A stretch of DNA of 64,000 nt from Mesaphorura yosii (taxonomy: Eukaryota > Arthropoda > Collembola > Poduromorpha > Tullbergiidae): NCBI GenBank assembly GCA_009869945.1, contig WIXG01000009.1, forward strand, positions 248,001 through 312,000, written 5' to 3'. The notes beneath the pieces were generated by a model that did not search any database, had not been told where the DNA came from, and saw only the letters and a list, made by a program, of their open reading frames with translations. This document shows, piece by piece, positions 32,321 through 43,039 of the stretch (its first letter is position 1; every line of letters begins with the position of its first letter). The translations under genes and the position numbers were made by a program.

Positions 32321-35300
32321 GCCACGTTGGATCACTGCACGTGTCTGGAGTTGGCCCTAGAGGGGGAGAGGCTATGTAAGTCTGGGGACTACAGATCAGG
32401 CGTTGTTTTCTTCGAAGCTGCAATACAGGCTGGATCGGATGATTTGAAGACACTCAGTGCAATCTACTCGCAATTAGGAAATGCATATTTTTATCTGGGT
32501 GATTATATGAAGTAAGTAGTATTCATTATTGGTAGGTCGCGGACGGAATGTTTTTATTTTTATAGAAATATTCCATAAATAATTGCGATCTGAGTTGATT
32601 GTAATTGTTGTCAACTATTCAACCCAGATAAACAAGATAATCTTATCGATTCTATCTATTCTACATTAGTAAGTTTAAGCTAACAGTTATCCTAAATTTC
32701 ATATTAACAGGGCGATGAGCTTCCATAAACATGATCTCACGCTAGCACGGTAATGAATGAATGCTCCATCATACATTGTTTCATTAATACTCGAAGGGCT
32801 CCACTAACGGAATTTGTCTTTCCGTCTGCAGCACAATGGGAGACAAGTTGGGCGAAGCAAAAGCCAGCGGTAATCTTGGAAACACTCTGAAGATTATGGG
32901 AAGATACGACGAGGCCATCATATGCTGCACCAGACACTTGGATATAACCAAACAGCTCGATGACAAAACTGGCCAAGCCAGAGCTTACTACAATTTAGGA
33001 AATGCGTACCATGCGAAAGGGAAATACATCGGGAAACTTGGACAGCAGGATCCTGGCGAATTCCCAGAGGATGTGAAGGCATGTCTGACGAAGGCATTAG
33101 AGCTTTACATGTAAGCGCCTTTAATTGCCATTTTGTGCTAGTTGGCAGTCGAAGTGCCCGGAAGTCGGCCAAGGAATGAGCGAATTTTGCTGAGACATCA
33201 TTATAAATTGAAAATTGATCAATTATAATTATTACTGAGAATGAGAAGGCGATATAATGAAACTTTTCATATCGTATCCTAAAAAATTGGCAGCGATACA
33301 GGAATAATTTCCTTCAAACGATTTTTCAAAGACCGTGTGCTCAGGAAATTCCAACTCAGCCTTTCCGTTTGTCACGTTGAATTTCGTCTTGTAAGGCGTG
33401 AGAACATCTTTTCCGTCCTTTGTCCACGCAACCCTCGGCGTAGGCGTGCCTTGAATTTCACACTCCAGTGAACGGAGTCCTTGCGTCAAATGAGTTGGAA
33501 TGTACAGCACACGCTGTCCAGCAATCTTCGGCGATCTTGGAACTGATTCTACCCAAATAAGCAAAAGGTCATCCTGATTAGTTCCAGCGCGAATAAATTA
33601 ATATATCTGTAGTGATTCTTACCCTCAGACGTTTCGTAGTACGTTCTACGATTTGCGGCCATTGGCGCAGTCAGGGCGTAGGCATACGAAATGCTGAACA
33701 CGGAAAACGAATAAATGCACGCGAAGAATAAGAATAGGTTCATTTTTTTTTGCTTTTGCGAGTTGTGTATCTTCAAAAATGAAGCGTTTACAGTAAAGAA
33801 CTAAACTAAACTGACGTTTACATAAAGAACGTGCTTGAGATTTCAATTAAAACTTCATGTTCATGCTGAATTCCTCTAAAAAGTTTTCACACGTATGAGG
33901 TGTCGATTATCGATGCAATTGAAGGTCTTCCCTTGTTTCTTGATTGCTTCTTGCGTCTTGCCGCAAAATATATCTTCTCTTTCTCTTTTTGTACCTCGAA
34001 CGTAGTGAGTCATCTTTCCTTTATCCCAAAAGTCAGTCAGTTACTGTCAAGAATTTATTTAAATTGGATAAACTAGAGCATGAATGAATGAAACTTATCA
34101 TGAGAGGAATGCGAGTTCGAATTTATGAGATTGATTGAATTCAATTCAGTTTACGGTTATTACCTTGCCGGTTATCGCATTGTTCCGGGAGCAGGAATAC
34201 GTAGTCGACGACGTCAATGATAATTCCAAGAAGAGCATTGCGAATCAATCGGGATCGATTGATCATTTTATAAGAATTGATTTGATCACCTTACAGTGAA
34301 TATTTGTTTCTTCGTTTCAGGGCAAACTTGGATCTCACGAAGGAGCTAAACGACAGGAGTGCAGAAGGACGCGCGTGTGGGAATCTTGGAAATGTACACT
34401 ACTTACTCGGGAACTTTGATGAGGCGATCGCGTACCACGACCAAAGACTTGAGATTGCGAAAGAGTTTGGAGACAAGAATGCTCAACGAAGAGCCCACAC
34501 CAATTTGGGCAACGCTCATGTGTTCTCTGGAAATTTTGAAACCGCAGCGCAGCATTACAAGTGCGTTCCTGTTACTAGTCTTGTGTTTTACGCTTTGCTC
34601 ACAATTAAAACGGTTCGACTTTCTGTTACAGAAAATCGCTGCTACTGTCTCAAGATCTCAGCGATCACGCGCTCGAAGCACAAGCTTGCTACAGTTTGGG
34701 CAACACATATACTCTTCTTCGAGATTATCCAAAAGCAGTTGAGTATCATTTGAGACATCTACAAATTGCACAGAACCTCCACGATAAAGTGGGGGAAGGT
34801 ACGGAAAACCCTATCCTGAAGTGTGGTGCGTACTTCATATATTTAGCATGCGGGATTCTTTTCCAGGTCGAGCTTTCTGGAGCTTAGGCAATGCATATTC
34901 TGCAATGGGCGACCATACTCAAGCTCTGCGATATGCAAAGCAACATTTTACAATTTCTACCGATTTGGGAGACCAAATGGGCCAGGCCACGGCGCAGATG
35001 AATGTGAATGACCTGCGTAAAGTGTTGGGGCTCACTGGAGATGAAGATATTGAGACAAATCCAAGTGAAGAAAGTAAATACAGTACAAATAGAAGAAAGT
35101 CAATGGAGGAAATGAACCTGATCAGAATGACACCAGAAGCTGCGTCATCAAACAGGGGTCGTGGGAAGAATCCACAACCTGGAGCTGGTCCGTCTGGAGC
35201 CCGACAAAATCGATCCCTGTCGGTTGGACAAGTTCTTTTCCGGAAAGGTCGCAGCCAAGATTCTTCGAGCAAGTTGTCCAAGCACATTTCCAAAACTTCG

Positions 35301-36075
35301 GAACTGGAGGAGGAGGAAGAAGAAGGACAAGACCAATTTTTTGATCTTCTTAGCAAGTGTCAAGCGGAAAGAATGGACGATCAACGCTGCAGCTTGCCCC
35401 AAGAACGGCCAACATCCAGCAAGACGGCTCGGAAAGAGGCTTCTGACTCGCATCCGTTTTCTTCAAGCTCTTTGCATTCCAAGGCTGGCTCATTTAAACA
35501 ATCTCATAGCAATGATCCCGGGAAGGCAGTAGACAAGGAAAACAAGGAGAAGAAGCCAAAAGTACTTCCACCCAGAGCATTAAGCGTTCCAGCTTATACT
35601 CCAAAGTCGCAGGCCACCGGAGAAGGTAAATACAAACTTGGCGGCAATTATAGCAGTTATGCACATGTTTAATTTGCTAATTAGGAGAATCGTCTGGTGG
35701 GAGTGAAGATTTGCTTGACATGATTTGGGGAATGCAGTCTAAAAGGATGGACGAACAACGGGCATGCTTACCACAATCGTCTAGTCCAGAAGAGAAGTTC
35801 TTCGATATGCTAATTCGGTCCCAGGTAAGTTTCGAGTGTGGAGCTGGAAAATTAGGAAAAGATTGTAGATGGACTTCATTTTGAATTTCTTGCTTTAGAG
35901 TTCCAGACTGGAAGACCAAAGAAGTGTTCTTCCAGAAGATTGTGCTGCAGGAACATCGCGCGGACCGACAGTTCCTGACGAAGACTTTTTCTCGTTAATT
36001 GCAAGGCTACAGGAAGGAAGAATGGACGATCAACGAGCGGACATTAAAGACAAAAATAGGAACAAAATTAACTAA
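32321..36075 (+). CDS. pins: Pins/rapsynoid (GPSM1/2, LGN) homologue, N-terminal Met exon not fixed
   Basis: G-protein regulator that binds GDP-Galpha-i and Mud/NuMA and orients the mitotic spindle at the cortex. Exons: 32321-32511, 32711-32749, 32832-33110, 34321-34560, 34632-34798, 34867-35625, 35685-35824, 35899-36075; phases agree and give 663 aa plus the start. TPR repeats fill the N-terminal half (CLELALEGERLCKSGDYRSG, SAIYSQLGNAYFYLGDY, ASGNLGNTLKIMGRYDEAI, ACYSLGNTYTLLRDYPKA), nearly as conserved as LGN. Four GoLoco motifs end the protein: FFDLLSKCQAERMDDQR, LLDMIWGMQSKRMDEQR, FFDMLIRSQSSRLEDQR, FFSLIARLQEGRMDDQR. The first listed exon begins in phase 0 after an acceptor, so the initiator is upstream; an ATG at 31789-31791 directly before GTGAAA would fit. 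Intron 33111-34320 holds another gene on the opposite strand. Poly(A) signals are near 36962 and 36969. Confidence 0.94.
33232..33743 (-). CDS. Small secreted single-Ig-domain protein nested in a pins intron
   Basis: Exons in transcript order: 33743-33623 and 33548-33232; phase 1 junction, 145 aa. Signal peptide MNLFLFFACIYSFSVFSISY is followed by one I-set-like Ig domain: SLECEIQGTPTPRVAWTKDG supplies the first Cys and the core Trp, and FEGNYSCIAANFLG supplies the YxC motif. There is no membrane anchor. One predicted N-glycosylation site lies in KFNVTNGK and another at NYSC. It resembles the Ig units of ImpL2-type or hemicentin-type proteins but has only one domain; I do not assign a family. 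Both exons lie inside the 1.2-kb intron of pins on the opposite strand. Confidence 0.75.
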
Positions 36076-37178: not shown

Positions 37179-38443
37179 ATGTCGGGGAACAGACGTGACG
37201 TTCGCCACGAAGATGAGGAAGGTTATGATTCCAGTTTTGAAGACGAGGAGACTTCAAACACTTCAAAGAAATCAAAGTCGTCTGAAGTGACGTTACAAGC
37301 GTCCGCGGCACAGACTCGGCACGCTGAAGGTAATCAACGTTGGGCTCCCAAATTCTTACGCATCACTGAAACACTGAAGCAGTAACATTTACTTATCTGT
37401 TCACAGCACTTCCATCCAAAAGCTTCTTCGAAGATCAACAGAGGAGGGCCGAGAGTTACAGAAGTCATTACTTCGCATTAAACGCCTATGAGCGGCACAA
37501 GAAATTAATTAATGACTACGTGCTCTACTACCCTGGCTCAAAAGCTCTGCTTAAAAGAGACAGGTAAGATAAGATATTGTATTGCCACTCCAATTATTAT
37601 CTGTTCACATTTACATGCAATTGATCGCAGTTCGAAAGACAAAAACGATCGAGACATTCTCGAAGAACATCACAGATTTCTGTGGGACGACGGAGAGGAC
37701 CCAACAAGTTGGGAAAAGCAGTTGGCAAAGAAATATTACGACAAGCTTTTTAAAGAGTACGGATTGTGTGACCTCTCCAGATACGCAGAGAATAAGGTGA
37801 GCGTGGACTCATTACATGGAAATTGAAGAAGTTGATTTGATTGGAGCTTGCGACGCACAGTAAGTTGAAAATGCTCAAAATTGGTTGAATTCTGGAACAG
37901 ATAGCGATAAGATGGCGGACTGAGGCGGAATTGGTGGAGGGAAAGGGCCAGTTTATCTGTGGGGAGAAGAAATGTCCATCAAAGGAGCACTTGCGTACCT
38001 GGGAAGTTAACTTCGCATACCTCGAAGATCGTGTCAAGAAGAATGCCTTAGTTAAGCTGCGTAAGCAGAAAAAGCATTATCGTTAGCTCATAATTTCTCG
38101 TCGAAGCTTAAAGTATTAGGTGGTATAAATTTCCTTCTAAGGGCTATGCACTCCTTGCTCCGTGAAACTAAACTTCAAGCAGCAGAAGAAAGAAGTTACG
38201 AAGAAGCCAAAGAAACGGAAACACAGCAAAGAGTCGTTGCATGGTTCCGACAAAAAGCGACGAAATAAACCCACGAGTGACGTATCTACAATCGAAGGAA
38301 AACAGGAAGGCGGTGACGGTGATGTAAAAGCTGAAAGCGAAGCCGCGTCAAGCAGTAATATTTGGAGGGAAACAGTCGTCGCTCCAGAACTGAAATCGCG
38401 AGAGGAGGAATTCGATGAGTACTTGGACGATCTCTTTTTGTAA
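37179..38443 (+). CDS. FRA10AC1: FRA10AC1 homologue
   Basis: Conserved nuclear protein associated with spliceosomes in other animals. Exons: 37179-37329, 37407-37563, 37631-37796, 37901-38060, 38142-38443; phases agree and give 311 aa. The acidic N-terminus precedes the family core: ALNAYERHKKLINDYVLYYP, DILEEHHRFLWDD, WEKQLAKKYYDKLFKEY, IRWRTEAELVEGKGQFICG, KEHLRTWEVNFAY, and a Cys pair in LCTPCSVKLNFKQQKK. The CGEKKC and CTPC pairs could bind zinc. The C-terminus is Lys-rich, then acidic (FDEYLDDLFL). Start is the second in-frame ATG-like codon; an upstream TTG was ignored. Poly(A) signal at 38493-38498. Confidence 0.9.
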
Positions 38444-39282: not shown

Positions 39283-40722
39283 ATGGCTGCACTTCCGAAT
39301 CCAGACTCCACCCTGTCGTCAAGCGGAGATGCTTCCAGTGTTGAGCACGGAAAGTAAGTCAGACGCGTGTAATCTGTAACGCTAATTGCAAAAAGTGGTG
39401 TAGTCCTTGAAGTTTTGATACGTTACATTAGTCCGTATTGTGTAGTTTGACCTTTATTGCAACATTGGACGTTAATTTTATCTGTGTTGCAGTTTCGAAG
39501 TTTATACTGGGGACATAATAGAGCTTGCTTCCAAAGATGATGTTTTGAAGAGTTTGGAATGTCCAGTATGTAGAGAAACTGCGCTGGCGCCCATCCACAT
39601 GTGCGAGAATGGACACATAATATGTTACACATGCCGCCAGCGATTAGTATCATGTGCCTTATGTAAAATTGGATTTTCCCATATACGCAATTTTGGATTA
39701 GAATCAATTGTCGCCAAATCAAAGTTGTACTGCAAGTATAAGGAACTTGGATGCGCCGAAATTTTGTTGGGAGAAACCCTAAATGACCATGCTCGAAATT
39801 GCTCCTTCAGGTAACCAAGCTTTTACTAATTCTATTATAAGCATGTAAACTCGAAGTGGAAGTTATCTTGATATCGTGGTAATGTTGAAATAATTTAGAC
39901 CTGAACCCGAGCAGCAGCCGCAAGTGATCACTCGTCGCACCGACAACTACGTTGATCGATCCGATTTGGACTTGGACCTAATTCCCCAGTTTATGGAGTG
40001 GTTATGGAGTGGGTCTCTCGGGAACTTGTCTTCTGACGATGGAGACAGTTATGTTCAAACAATGGGATGGCGAAGAGGAAGAAGTGGCAGTATTCCTCCG
40101 AACGCAGTGCGTGCTGGTTACGAAAGTGCTAAATACGTGTGCCGCGCGTTTCATCAACGAATGTGTGCTCCGGGAATGATTTGTCCTGAAGATCGAGTCG
40201 CTTATGTTAATTGGTTTGGTACGAGATCGAAGTATTACTATGAGGTATGTCGCCAATTGTCAGACCGTATATTTCTACACGAACAAGCTCGTGACGGCCC
40301 TAACAGATATTTAATTTCATTTGCAGGTCTTAGTTGCCATTCCAGGTACTGTGACATGGGTGCGATCTCGTCGGGGTGAAGTTCCAGGTATTTTCCCTCA
40401 TACATTTGTTAAAACCTTGTCTAGTTAAGGAGTTTGTCCAGATTTTGTTTTTCCGTTCTCACTAATAGACAATGCTGTGATTGGTGCTGATCAAGTTGGC
40501 AGTGAGCGAATTTACATTGGCAGAACAAAAATTGACGGTCAATGGGTTTCTGGCTACGTGAAGCCCTCGCACAACCGTAAGAGACATTGAATTCGAATCT
40601 CCATGTTAAATCTCAGCGTGCCCTCATTTGACAGAGACTCTTTGATAGGTTGTTACGTGACAAATGGAACGACTGCCATTGGGAGAAGATACTACCAACT
40701 TTTAGTAACGACTGACACATAA
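39283..40722 (+). CDS. SIAH-type RING finger fused to tandem DM9 (DUF3421) module
   Basis: Predicted E3 ubiquitin ligase with a lectin-like tail. Exons: 39283-39353, 39493-39810, 39899-40244, 40327-40387, 40469-40576, 40649-40722; phases agree and give 325 aa. Residues about 47-81 form a C3HC4 RING of the SIAH type (CPVCRETALAPIHMCENGHI, then ICYTCRQRLVSCALC). Residues 82-130 resemble the start of the SIAH zinc-finger/SBD region (IRNFGLESIVAKSKLYCKYK, ELGCAEILLGE, DHARNCSF), but the substrate-binding beta-sandwich is absent. Residues about 193-322 are instead two DM9 repeats: PPNAVRAGY..YVCRAFH..YYYEVLVA, and DNAVIGADQ..IYIGRTKIDGQWVSGYVKPSH. DM9 proteins bind mannose in oysters. No signal peptide, so it should act in the cytoplasm. 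Poly(A) signals at 40864 and about 40953. Confidence 0.85.
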
Positions 40723-41420: not shown

Positions 41421-43039
41421 TCACTCGTCTAAGCAGACTGTGCGAACAATGACCTCCGTCACCGAGTACGGATCGCAGTTTGACGATGGGCGACGGTCCT
41501 CCAAGTACCCCTTGCGCTCTTCGGCGACAGATCTCGGAATGCGAATACTGCATCCACGGTTGGCCACTCCGGCCGAGAAGTCGTGAATCGAAGACGTCTC
41601 GTGGTGCCCCGTCAGACGACGCTCATTGTCCTTGCCTTCCTTCGGGTCGTAGGCCTTGATGTGGCGCAGATGGTGACGAGAGAGCTTGTCAATCGCCTTC
41701 TCAATGTCCAAGATGCCATTCTCCTCACGCATCGCCTGTGAAAATGAAAATGTAAAATGTGGAAATGGAAGCACTGACTTATGCCTGATTTAATGTTCGC
41801 ATTCTGTACCTTGGTCGAGAAATTGGTGTGGCAGCCAGCTCCGTTCCAGTCTCCTGGAATCGGTTTCGGGTCCAGAGACACAACGACGCCAAAATCTTCT
41901 GCGACGCGGTGAAGCAGATAACGAGCGACCCACAATTCGTCTCCCATCGCAATACCTTCACAGGGTCCGACTTGAAACTCCCATTGAGCTGGCATAACCT
42001 CGGCATTTGTTCCGCAAATCTGAATTCCAGCGTAGAGCGACGCACGGTAATGCGCTTCAACGATGTCCCGGCCAAATACTTTGTTGGCTCCGACTCCACA
42101 ATAGTAAGGTCCCTGGAGAAAAATATGAGAAGCTTCTTTGAGATTGGCTGTATTTACCACTTGCGATTTCAGTCATATTCACCTGTGGTCCTGGGAATCC
42201 GTTCTTGGGCCAGCCAAATGGATGCAAATCTTGGTCCAAGAGAGAATATTCTTGTTCCAAACCAAACCACGGTTTCTGGTCCTTCGCCTTGTTCATGGCT
42301 TCCAAGCAGCTCGCACGTTTGTTCGAATCTATGTAAAAAAATAGAGCACGAGGGTCAAGAGACGTGAATTCTTAACGCGACGTTTGTCATGAAAATGAAT
42401 GTCTTTGATTTGATGATCTGACTCACCGGTAGGCTTCTTGTTGTATCTGTACGTATCGCACATTACGAGCTTGTGATTTCCAAGAAGAAACGGATCTTTG
42501 TAGACTGCCACCGGGTACAAATACACGTCCGAATTGCTCCCTTCTGCCTGGTAGGTTGAGCTTCCATCGTAATTCCAAATTGGTAATTCTGCAATTTTGA
42601 GGGAAAGTGAGCAAAAGAAAAACCTGAACTGAGCTGCGATCTCGAATTTCCTGTTTAGGCACACGAGATACGAGAGCACGAAAGGGTTTTTGGGTACGTT
42701 TGAGCTCGTGTGGGAAAGCGACTGAGAACGAATGTTCTCTGATTTAAGTGCGTGAAGGGTTATCAGGAACCTCTGCCCGTGCATCGAGTACGAAAACGCT
42801 TCGGCTTTGCGTGCAATTGTTCGTTCAATCGCCGTTATGCAAGTAAAACTTAAAGGCTGAATTTGTTAATTACCTTCGGCTTTCTTCGGTACAAAGTTCA
42901 ACGATCTTGTTTTGCAGCGGACGTACTCGCCAGTGCCATCAATCCAGATGTACGTCGCCTGACAAATGTTCTCGTCAAGCGGAATTCGGAGGTAACGGTC
43001 CAGCACCGTTTTGTTGGTGGCGATATTCGGTAAAGTCAT
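41421..43039 (-). CDS. GS: Glutamine synthetase (GSII)
   Basis: ATP-dependent ligation of ammonia to glutamate, cytosolic decamer. Exons in transcript order: 43039-42874, 42588-42427, 42328-42183, 42112-41810, 41735-41421; phases agree and give 363 aa, the usual length for animal GS. Landmarks: [111 protein letters not shown] and [20 protein letters not shown]. These include the glutamate-binding and metal-binding residues. No mitochondrial targeting extension is evident. Poly(A) signal (TTTATT) at 41003-41008; convergent with the RING-DM9 gene. Confidence 0.97.

Follow-up and report, generated by a model that had tools for sequence, protein, structure and literature searches.

The genome of Mesaphorura yosii (93 Mb, 1127 contigs) contains a gene in which the RING finger and first zinc finger of a SIAH-type ubiquitin ligase are joined to two tandem DM9 repeats. 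Chitin_bind_4, a domain characteristic of cuticle proteins in arthropods, is matched 66 times in this genome, in keeping with an arthropod source. The gene lies in the window analyzed here, a stretch of 64,000 nucleotides (C9:248001-312000), and is hereafter called the C9 copy. The junction of a SIAH-type front half with DM9 is a real architecture, belonging to one gene. The main features are as follows (positions in the window).

39283..40722, + strand: whole RING-DM9 coding region; 6 exons, 990 nt, 329 aa plus stop, open frame with GT-AG introns
39283..39353, + strand: exon 1; short N-terminus without a hydrophobic stretch, ending in phase 2 (C360 and C21, see below, also have a short exon 1 ending in phase 2)
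39493..39810, + strand: exon 2; RING and zinc finger 1, phase 2 at both ends
39560..39664, + strand: SINA-type C3HC4 RING, aa 47-81; Pfam PF21362 (Sina_RING), E 3.7e-11, over the cut-off, and found at the same place by the genome-wide family search
39731..39802, + strand: first SIAH zinc finger, aa 104-127 (C104, C111, H123, C127); from the alignment to SIAH1 9g0l_A and the ligand pattern
39900..40067, + strand: linker, aa 131-186; without Pfam match, placed where SIAH zinc finger 2 is expected to start, with the junction residues RP as in SIAH1
40068..40244, + strand: main part of DM9 repeat 1; Pfam PF11901 and oyster lectin alignment, last residues in exon 4
40351..40713, + strand, split 40351-40387, 40469-40576 and 40637-40713 (exons 4-6): DM9 repeat 2; Pfam and oyster lectin alignment

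The six exons (39283-39353, 39493-39810, 39899-40244, 40327-40387, 40469-40576, and 40637-40722) are separated by five introns of 60-139 bases, all of them GT-AG, and a stop closes the frame 5' of the ATG. An acceptor two bases 5' of 40637 was discarded for the last exon: it breaks the frame, which 40637 keeps.

The first-pass annotation had read the first ~130 residues as a SIAH RING followed by the start of its zinc-finger region, and the searches agree. Besides the Sina_RING match, the PDB sequence search aligned aa 35-132 without gaps to the RING and zinc finger of SIAH1 (chain 9g0l_A, E 8.9e-18). The zinc ligands are complete in both the RING (8/8) and zinc finger 1 (4/4), as they are in C360 and C21, whereas the Sina_ZnF profile (Pfam PF21361) matched aa 101-131 below its cut-off (E 0.0029, 18.4 bits vs 32). 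As for the back half, DM9 (PF11901) was matched well over its cut-off in two stretches (E 7.9e-27, 93.9 bits vs 26.2), and aa 187-292 found the oyster DM9 lectin chains (labelled Natterin-3) in the PDB at E 1.1e-5. The TRAF-like substrate-binding domain (PF03145), the aerolysin-like pore-forming domain typical of natterins, and the B-box typical of TRIM proteins were all unmatched in Pfam up to E 1. The earlier statement that two DM9 repeats replace the SIAH substrate-binding domain, for which a significant DM9 profile match had been named as a check, is thus confirmed. The second SIAH zinc finger is missing too: there is no cysteine or histidine between aa 128 and 186, and the Sina_ZnF match stops at aa 131. 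AlphaFold, run without an alignment on exon 2 alone and exon 3 alone, returned unusable models (mean pLDDT 40.4 and 39.7).

Searching the genome with the C9 protein identified two paralogues with the same order of parts, C360, with Sina_RING at E 1.1e-9 and DM9 at E 1.5e-36, and C21, where the two domains reach E 2.2e-12 and E 8.9e-18, respectively. The three genes share intron phases 2, 2, and 0: a short exon 1, a RING-zinc finger exon with a phase-2 intron on either side, and, following DM9 repeat 1, a phase-0 intron. Beyond this pattern, the C9 gene has two extra introns inside DM9 repeat 2. Compared pairwise, the RING halves are 37-39% identical and the DM9 halves 29-33%, with shuffle z values of 20-41. 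The best other match of the C9 protein in the genome reached 47% across a single exon, and no recent duplicate of the gene is therefore seen.

These paralogues bear directly on whether the locus could be two adjacent genes mistaken for one, or an error of assembly. Such an explanation could draw on two traits of the C9 copy: retention of the 39810/39899 intron brings a stop straight behind zinc finger 1, encoded by the first bases of the intron, and exon 3 holds internal ATG codons before DM9. Against it, the join and its intron phase are repeated in two paralogues on other contigs, and an equivalent intron of equal phase stands behind zinc finger 1 in other SINA-RING genes as well. Furthermore, a DM9 match at most 1 kb downstream of a SINA-type RING on the same strand was observed three times, against 0.0016 expected by chance (25 RING × 12 DM9 places), and a further place, C656, encodes a RING and a DM9 repeat within a single unspliced frame. 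Given the recurrence of the join at C360 and C21, we reject a misreading of two genes, in line with the clean exon phases that the first-pass annotation had taken as a sign of one gene; adjacent genes or assembly error, taken together, are an explanation to which we give very little weight.

The front half belongs to an expanded family. Sina_RING was matched at 25 places in the genome (E up to 0.001), 24 of which are over the cut-off. At the same E value, Sina_TRAF (PF03145) was found in C27 only, which is the canonical SIAH of the family, and DM9 is carried by C9, C21, and C360. A second zinc finger was read at eight places in the next exon frame listed by a script (C107, C55, C64, C150, C101, C182, C776, and C373) and at another eight by eye in open frames (C460, C25, C81, C602, C142, C87, C125, and C164). 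The C107 tail matched Sina_TRAF below the cut-off (E 0.0036), and two other tails of this type had no Pfam match. On this manual reading, a SIAH back half, though diverged, seems to be retained at 16/25 places, which makes the DM9 genes an exception within the family. The class of the tail is unclear at the other five places (C384, C608, C266, and two at C484, a and b). C384 and C608 are close paralogues, and the downstream frames of both show a cysteine-rich motif that may be another zinc-finger tail. The next frames of C266 and of the two C484 places are of low complexity (serine/arginine-rich at one of the latter), with no second zinc finger visible. A literature search on SINA family expansion returned a single paper, on a clam genome.

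At 16 of the 25 places, the script placed a phase-2 donor after a C-x-F/Y/C-R/G motif close to where zinc finger 1 ends, its pick at C107 being an odd upstream site. The residues across the junction are RP, as in SIAH1, in 7/8 of the listed zinc-finger-2 exons and in the C9 gene (RPEPEQ), while C360 has GP and C21 has RY; this likeness is partly built in, since the script took only frames with P or Y as the second residue. The pattern fits a replacement of the back half at the phase-2 intron or a few bases behind it.

DM9 also occurs behind a second type of RING, as follows.

C656:3593-4765: second RING type with DM9; RING and first DM9 repeat in one unspliced open frame

This RING matches zf-C3HC4_2 (E 4.1e-10) and is followed by a zinc-finger stretch (Sina_ZnF E 0.00039, below the cut-off), an alanine-rich charged stretch that looks coiled-coil-like by eye, and DM9 (E 3.6e-13); the second DM9 repeat lies in the following exon (E 4.6e-22). 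The RING-zinc finger part has 33 matching stretches in the genome, itself counted. Nine further loci of this family encode the RING and zinc finger in a shared open frame, several with coiled-coil-like or low-complexity tails; no DM9 was seen in these nine, and their contigs are also missing from the genome-wide DM9 matches. One place of this type, C704, is weakly matched by the C9 protein (23% identity), and the two families may thus be distant kin. Overall, the 14 DM9 matches in the genome were grouped manually into 12 gene places, and DM9 stands behind a RING in four of them (C9, C360, C21, and C656). At C456 and C202, it stands behind an astacin protease domain: the astacin domain and then a DM9 pair lie in a single frame at C456:29925-30257 and C202:114407-114763. 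The HExxH zinc site at the C202 place looks broken by eye, so this protease may be inactive.

Then, we considered whether the fusions share one origin. In the RING tree (23 rows, C602 and C164 dropped, and several rows, including the canonical SIAH C27, lacking the zinc finger), C9, C360, and C21 do not group, and forcing them together costs 7.4 log-likelihood units, which is not rejected (AU p 0.26). The nearest RING of each of the three is that of C107, a zinc-finger-2 gene, at 44-49%. In the DM9 tree (10 rows including the oyster lectin CGL1), neither a clade of C9, C360, and C21 (AU p 0.37) nor one with C656 added (AU p 0.30) was rejected. The trees are thus compatible with a single origin of the three SINA-RING/DM9 fusions and with separate ones. 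Because the RING of C656 differs in type from the SINA RING, DM9 was likely taken up twice, though the DM9 tree is equally compatible with a single clade of all four DM9 parts. No close relative was confirmed for exon 2 in prokaryote genomes or for exon 3 in viral contigs.

What the protein does can be approached from its parts. With slightly better than even confidence, we read the C9 protein as a cytosolic RING E3 of SIAH/SINA descent in which zinc finger 2 and the TRAF-like half would have been exchanged for tandem DM9 as a reader. The RING and zinc finger 1 would recruit a ubiquitin-loaded E2 enzyme, and the tandem DM9 beta-module, in place of zinc finger 2 and the TRAF-like domain, would select the target. 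In SIAH, the TRAF-like domain serves both to hold the target and to pair the subunits. DM9 may likewise pair two copies of the protein, given that the oyster DM9 lectin is a dimer. Hydropathy revealed no membrane-length hydrophobic stretch, and the protein is probably cytosolic, consistent with the location proposed in the first-pass annotation. E3 activity, the role of DM9 in recognition, the location, and the dimerization are all inferred from the domains.

Alternatively, the RING half might transfer no ubiquitin, and the protein would act as a pseudo-ligase or adaptor that pairs with further SINA-type RING proteins and binds partners through DM9. The proline that SIAH1 has between its last zinc cysteines (CPTC) is gone from the RINGs of C9, C360, and C21 (CALC, CGLC, and CHLC), and from other family members too, and E2 binding could thereby be altered. 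Moreover, the RING ligand pattern failed at 5/25 places of the family (C266, C608, C602, C776, and C164), some of them perhaps merely through odd spacing or a missing exon. The C9 RING, however, retains all its ligands, the CPVC start, and the basic residue after the last cysteine, and its alignment with SIAH1 runs without gaps, which leaves the adaptor explanation improbable.

The ligand of DM9 is the other point at which an active E3 can be understood in different ways. The first-pass annotation had proposed that the protein reads sugar or pathogen patterns. In oyster CGL1, a dimer with its sugar sites between the two DM9 halves, mannose is reported to be held at site A by the side chains of D22, K43, and E59 and, at site B, by those of K114 and E130, in addition to main-chain and stacking contacts (passages of PMC4932603). 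Mutation D22A or K43A alone is described as abolishing mannose binding of the oyster protein (passages of PMC5712788). We aligned CGL1 with nine DM9 pairs from the 12 DM9 gene places; the sequences are diverged, and the columns of the second repeat are gapped and less sure. C864, the second DM9 place of C456, and C75 were read as well but stand outside both this alignment and the DM9 tree. The residues equivalent to D22, K43, E59, K114, and E130 are:

C9: E, M, R, Y, A
C21: E, F, I, F, N
C360: Q, K, E, K, E (4/5 kept)
C656: E, K, E, Y, E
C291: D, K, E, K, E

Seven of the nine pairs have both K43 and E59; the exceptions, which lack the two, are C9 and C21. D22 is present in four pairs (C291, C1, C456, and C202), none of which is among the four linked to a RING. 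In the C9 protein, E and M thus take the place of the two residues that CGL1 requires for mannose binding. Judging from these residues, mannose reading by the C9 copy is unlikely, and this copy probably binds a protein, another sugar, or some other ligand. C360, with 4/5 contact residues, may still bind glycans. The proposal of sugar reading is thus unsupported for the C9 copy and keeps its place for the family.

A glycan-reading immune or damage sensor, along the lines of the first-pass annotation, has several points to recommend it; its DM9 would bind, in the cytosol, mannose-rich sugars from microbes or from endosomes that have burst, which the RING would tag with ubiquitin. The portions of PMC5712788 consulted report that the oyster DM9 protein binds mannose and microbes, that one Drosophila and one mosquito DM9 protein are upregulated on infection, and that three more from Drosophila are linked to engulfment. 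Sugar-recognizing F-box proteins are described as components of a different type of E3 (PMC6389600, in part), and C360 retains K43, E59, K114, and E130. The replacements in C9 and C21, at positions that include the two essential in the oyster protein, speak against it, and we regard such a sensor as unlikely, if somewhat less so than an inactive adaptor. The eroded sugar site could also be taken as a mark of a decaying gene without present function. Since the frame and splice sites are intact through six exons and the identity between paralogues spans both halves, decay seems highly improbable. The SIAH-derived E3 with a DM9 reader of other ligands remains our preferred reading of the C9 protein.

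Compared with known systems, the C9 protein shares the RING and first zinc finger with the SIAH/SINA E3 ligases (PF21362, PF21361, and PF03145), as the alignment of aa 35-132 with human SIAH1 indicates, and differs from them in having DM9 where they have their own second zinc finger and TRAF-like domain. It shares the two tandem DM9 repeats (PF11901) with oyster CGL1/CgDM9CP-1, whereas its DM9 sits behind a RING and zinc finger and has lost the mannose-contact side chains. TRIM proteins, such as TRIM21, consist of a RING, a B-box, and a coiled coil, and the recognition domain attached to the RING differs from one member to another. The likeness to the C9 protein lies in the RING with a variable recognition domain; the C9 protein differs in lacking a B-box match and in the recognition domain itself. 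To our knowledge, most sugar-reading E3s are F-box lectins found in mammals and plants. Ligases of the FBXO2 type are multi-subunit cullin ligases with another lectin fold and are not kin of the C9 protein. As E3 components with a sugar-recognizing target reader, lectin-type F-box proteins such as FBXO2 (SCF E3 parts; PMC6389600, in part) are functional analogues.

DM9 is joined to other domains elsewhere too. The fusions named in the consulted parts of PMC5712788 and PMC8402412 are natterins (DM9 with an aerolysin-like domain) and DM9 with a farnesoic acid O-methyltransferase domain; they resemble the C9 protein in that DM9 is joined to another domain, and none of those named there includes a RING or E3. 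A literature search for DM9/DUF3421 with SIAH, RING, E3, or ubiquitin ligase, whose coverage leaves out most subscription papers, returned no such fusion by title or abstract start. Among the matches listed, searches on DM9 with Daphnia and on DM9 fusions in general gave nothing on a RING-DM9 architecture by title. As the first-pass annotation had supposed, this SINA-derived RING protein with another reader is undescribed in the literature searched, although protein databases may list the architecture uncommented.

If active, these proteins would be single-chain E3 ligases with a lectin-like reader. The three sister genes differ in whether they keep the mannose residues and constitute a natural test of whether DM9 chooses its targets by sugar or by protein contact, and the SIAH front half appears at the C9 locus as a reusable exon module between phase-2 introns. 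More tentatively, DM9 could be a recurrent reader of RING ligases in this genome: two expanded RING-zinc finger families, the SINA type (25 places) and the C656 type (33 stretches), would each have gained tandem DM9 in the position that different tails occupy in the rest of the family. The products would be a TRIM-like set of cytosolic E3 sensors whose readers can be exchanged, with C360 and C656 perhaps still reading sugar and C9 and C21 turned to other ligands; we consider this broader picture possible rather than probable.

The surroundings of the gene in the window are ordinary. A piece of a Fra10Ac1 gene lies 5' of it (37509-37823, + strand), a piece of a glutamine synthetase gene lies 3' (41615-42172, - strand), and an open frame with a GoLoco motif is found at 34788-35669 (+ strand).
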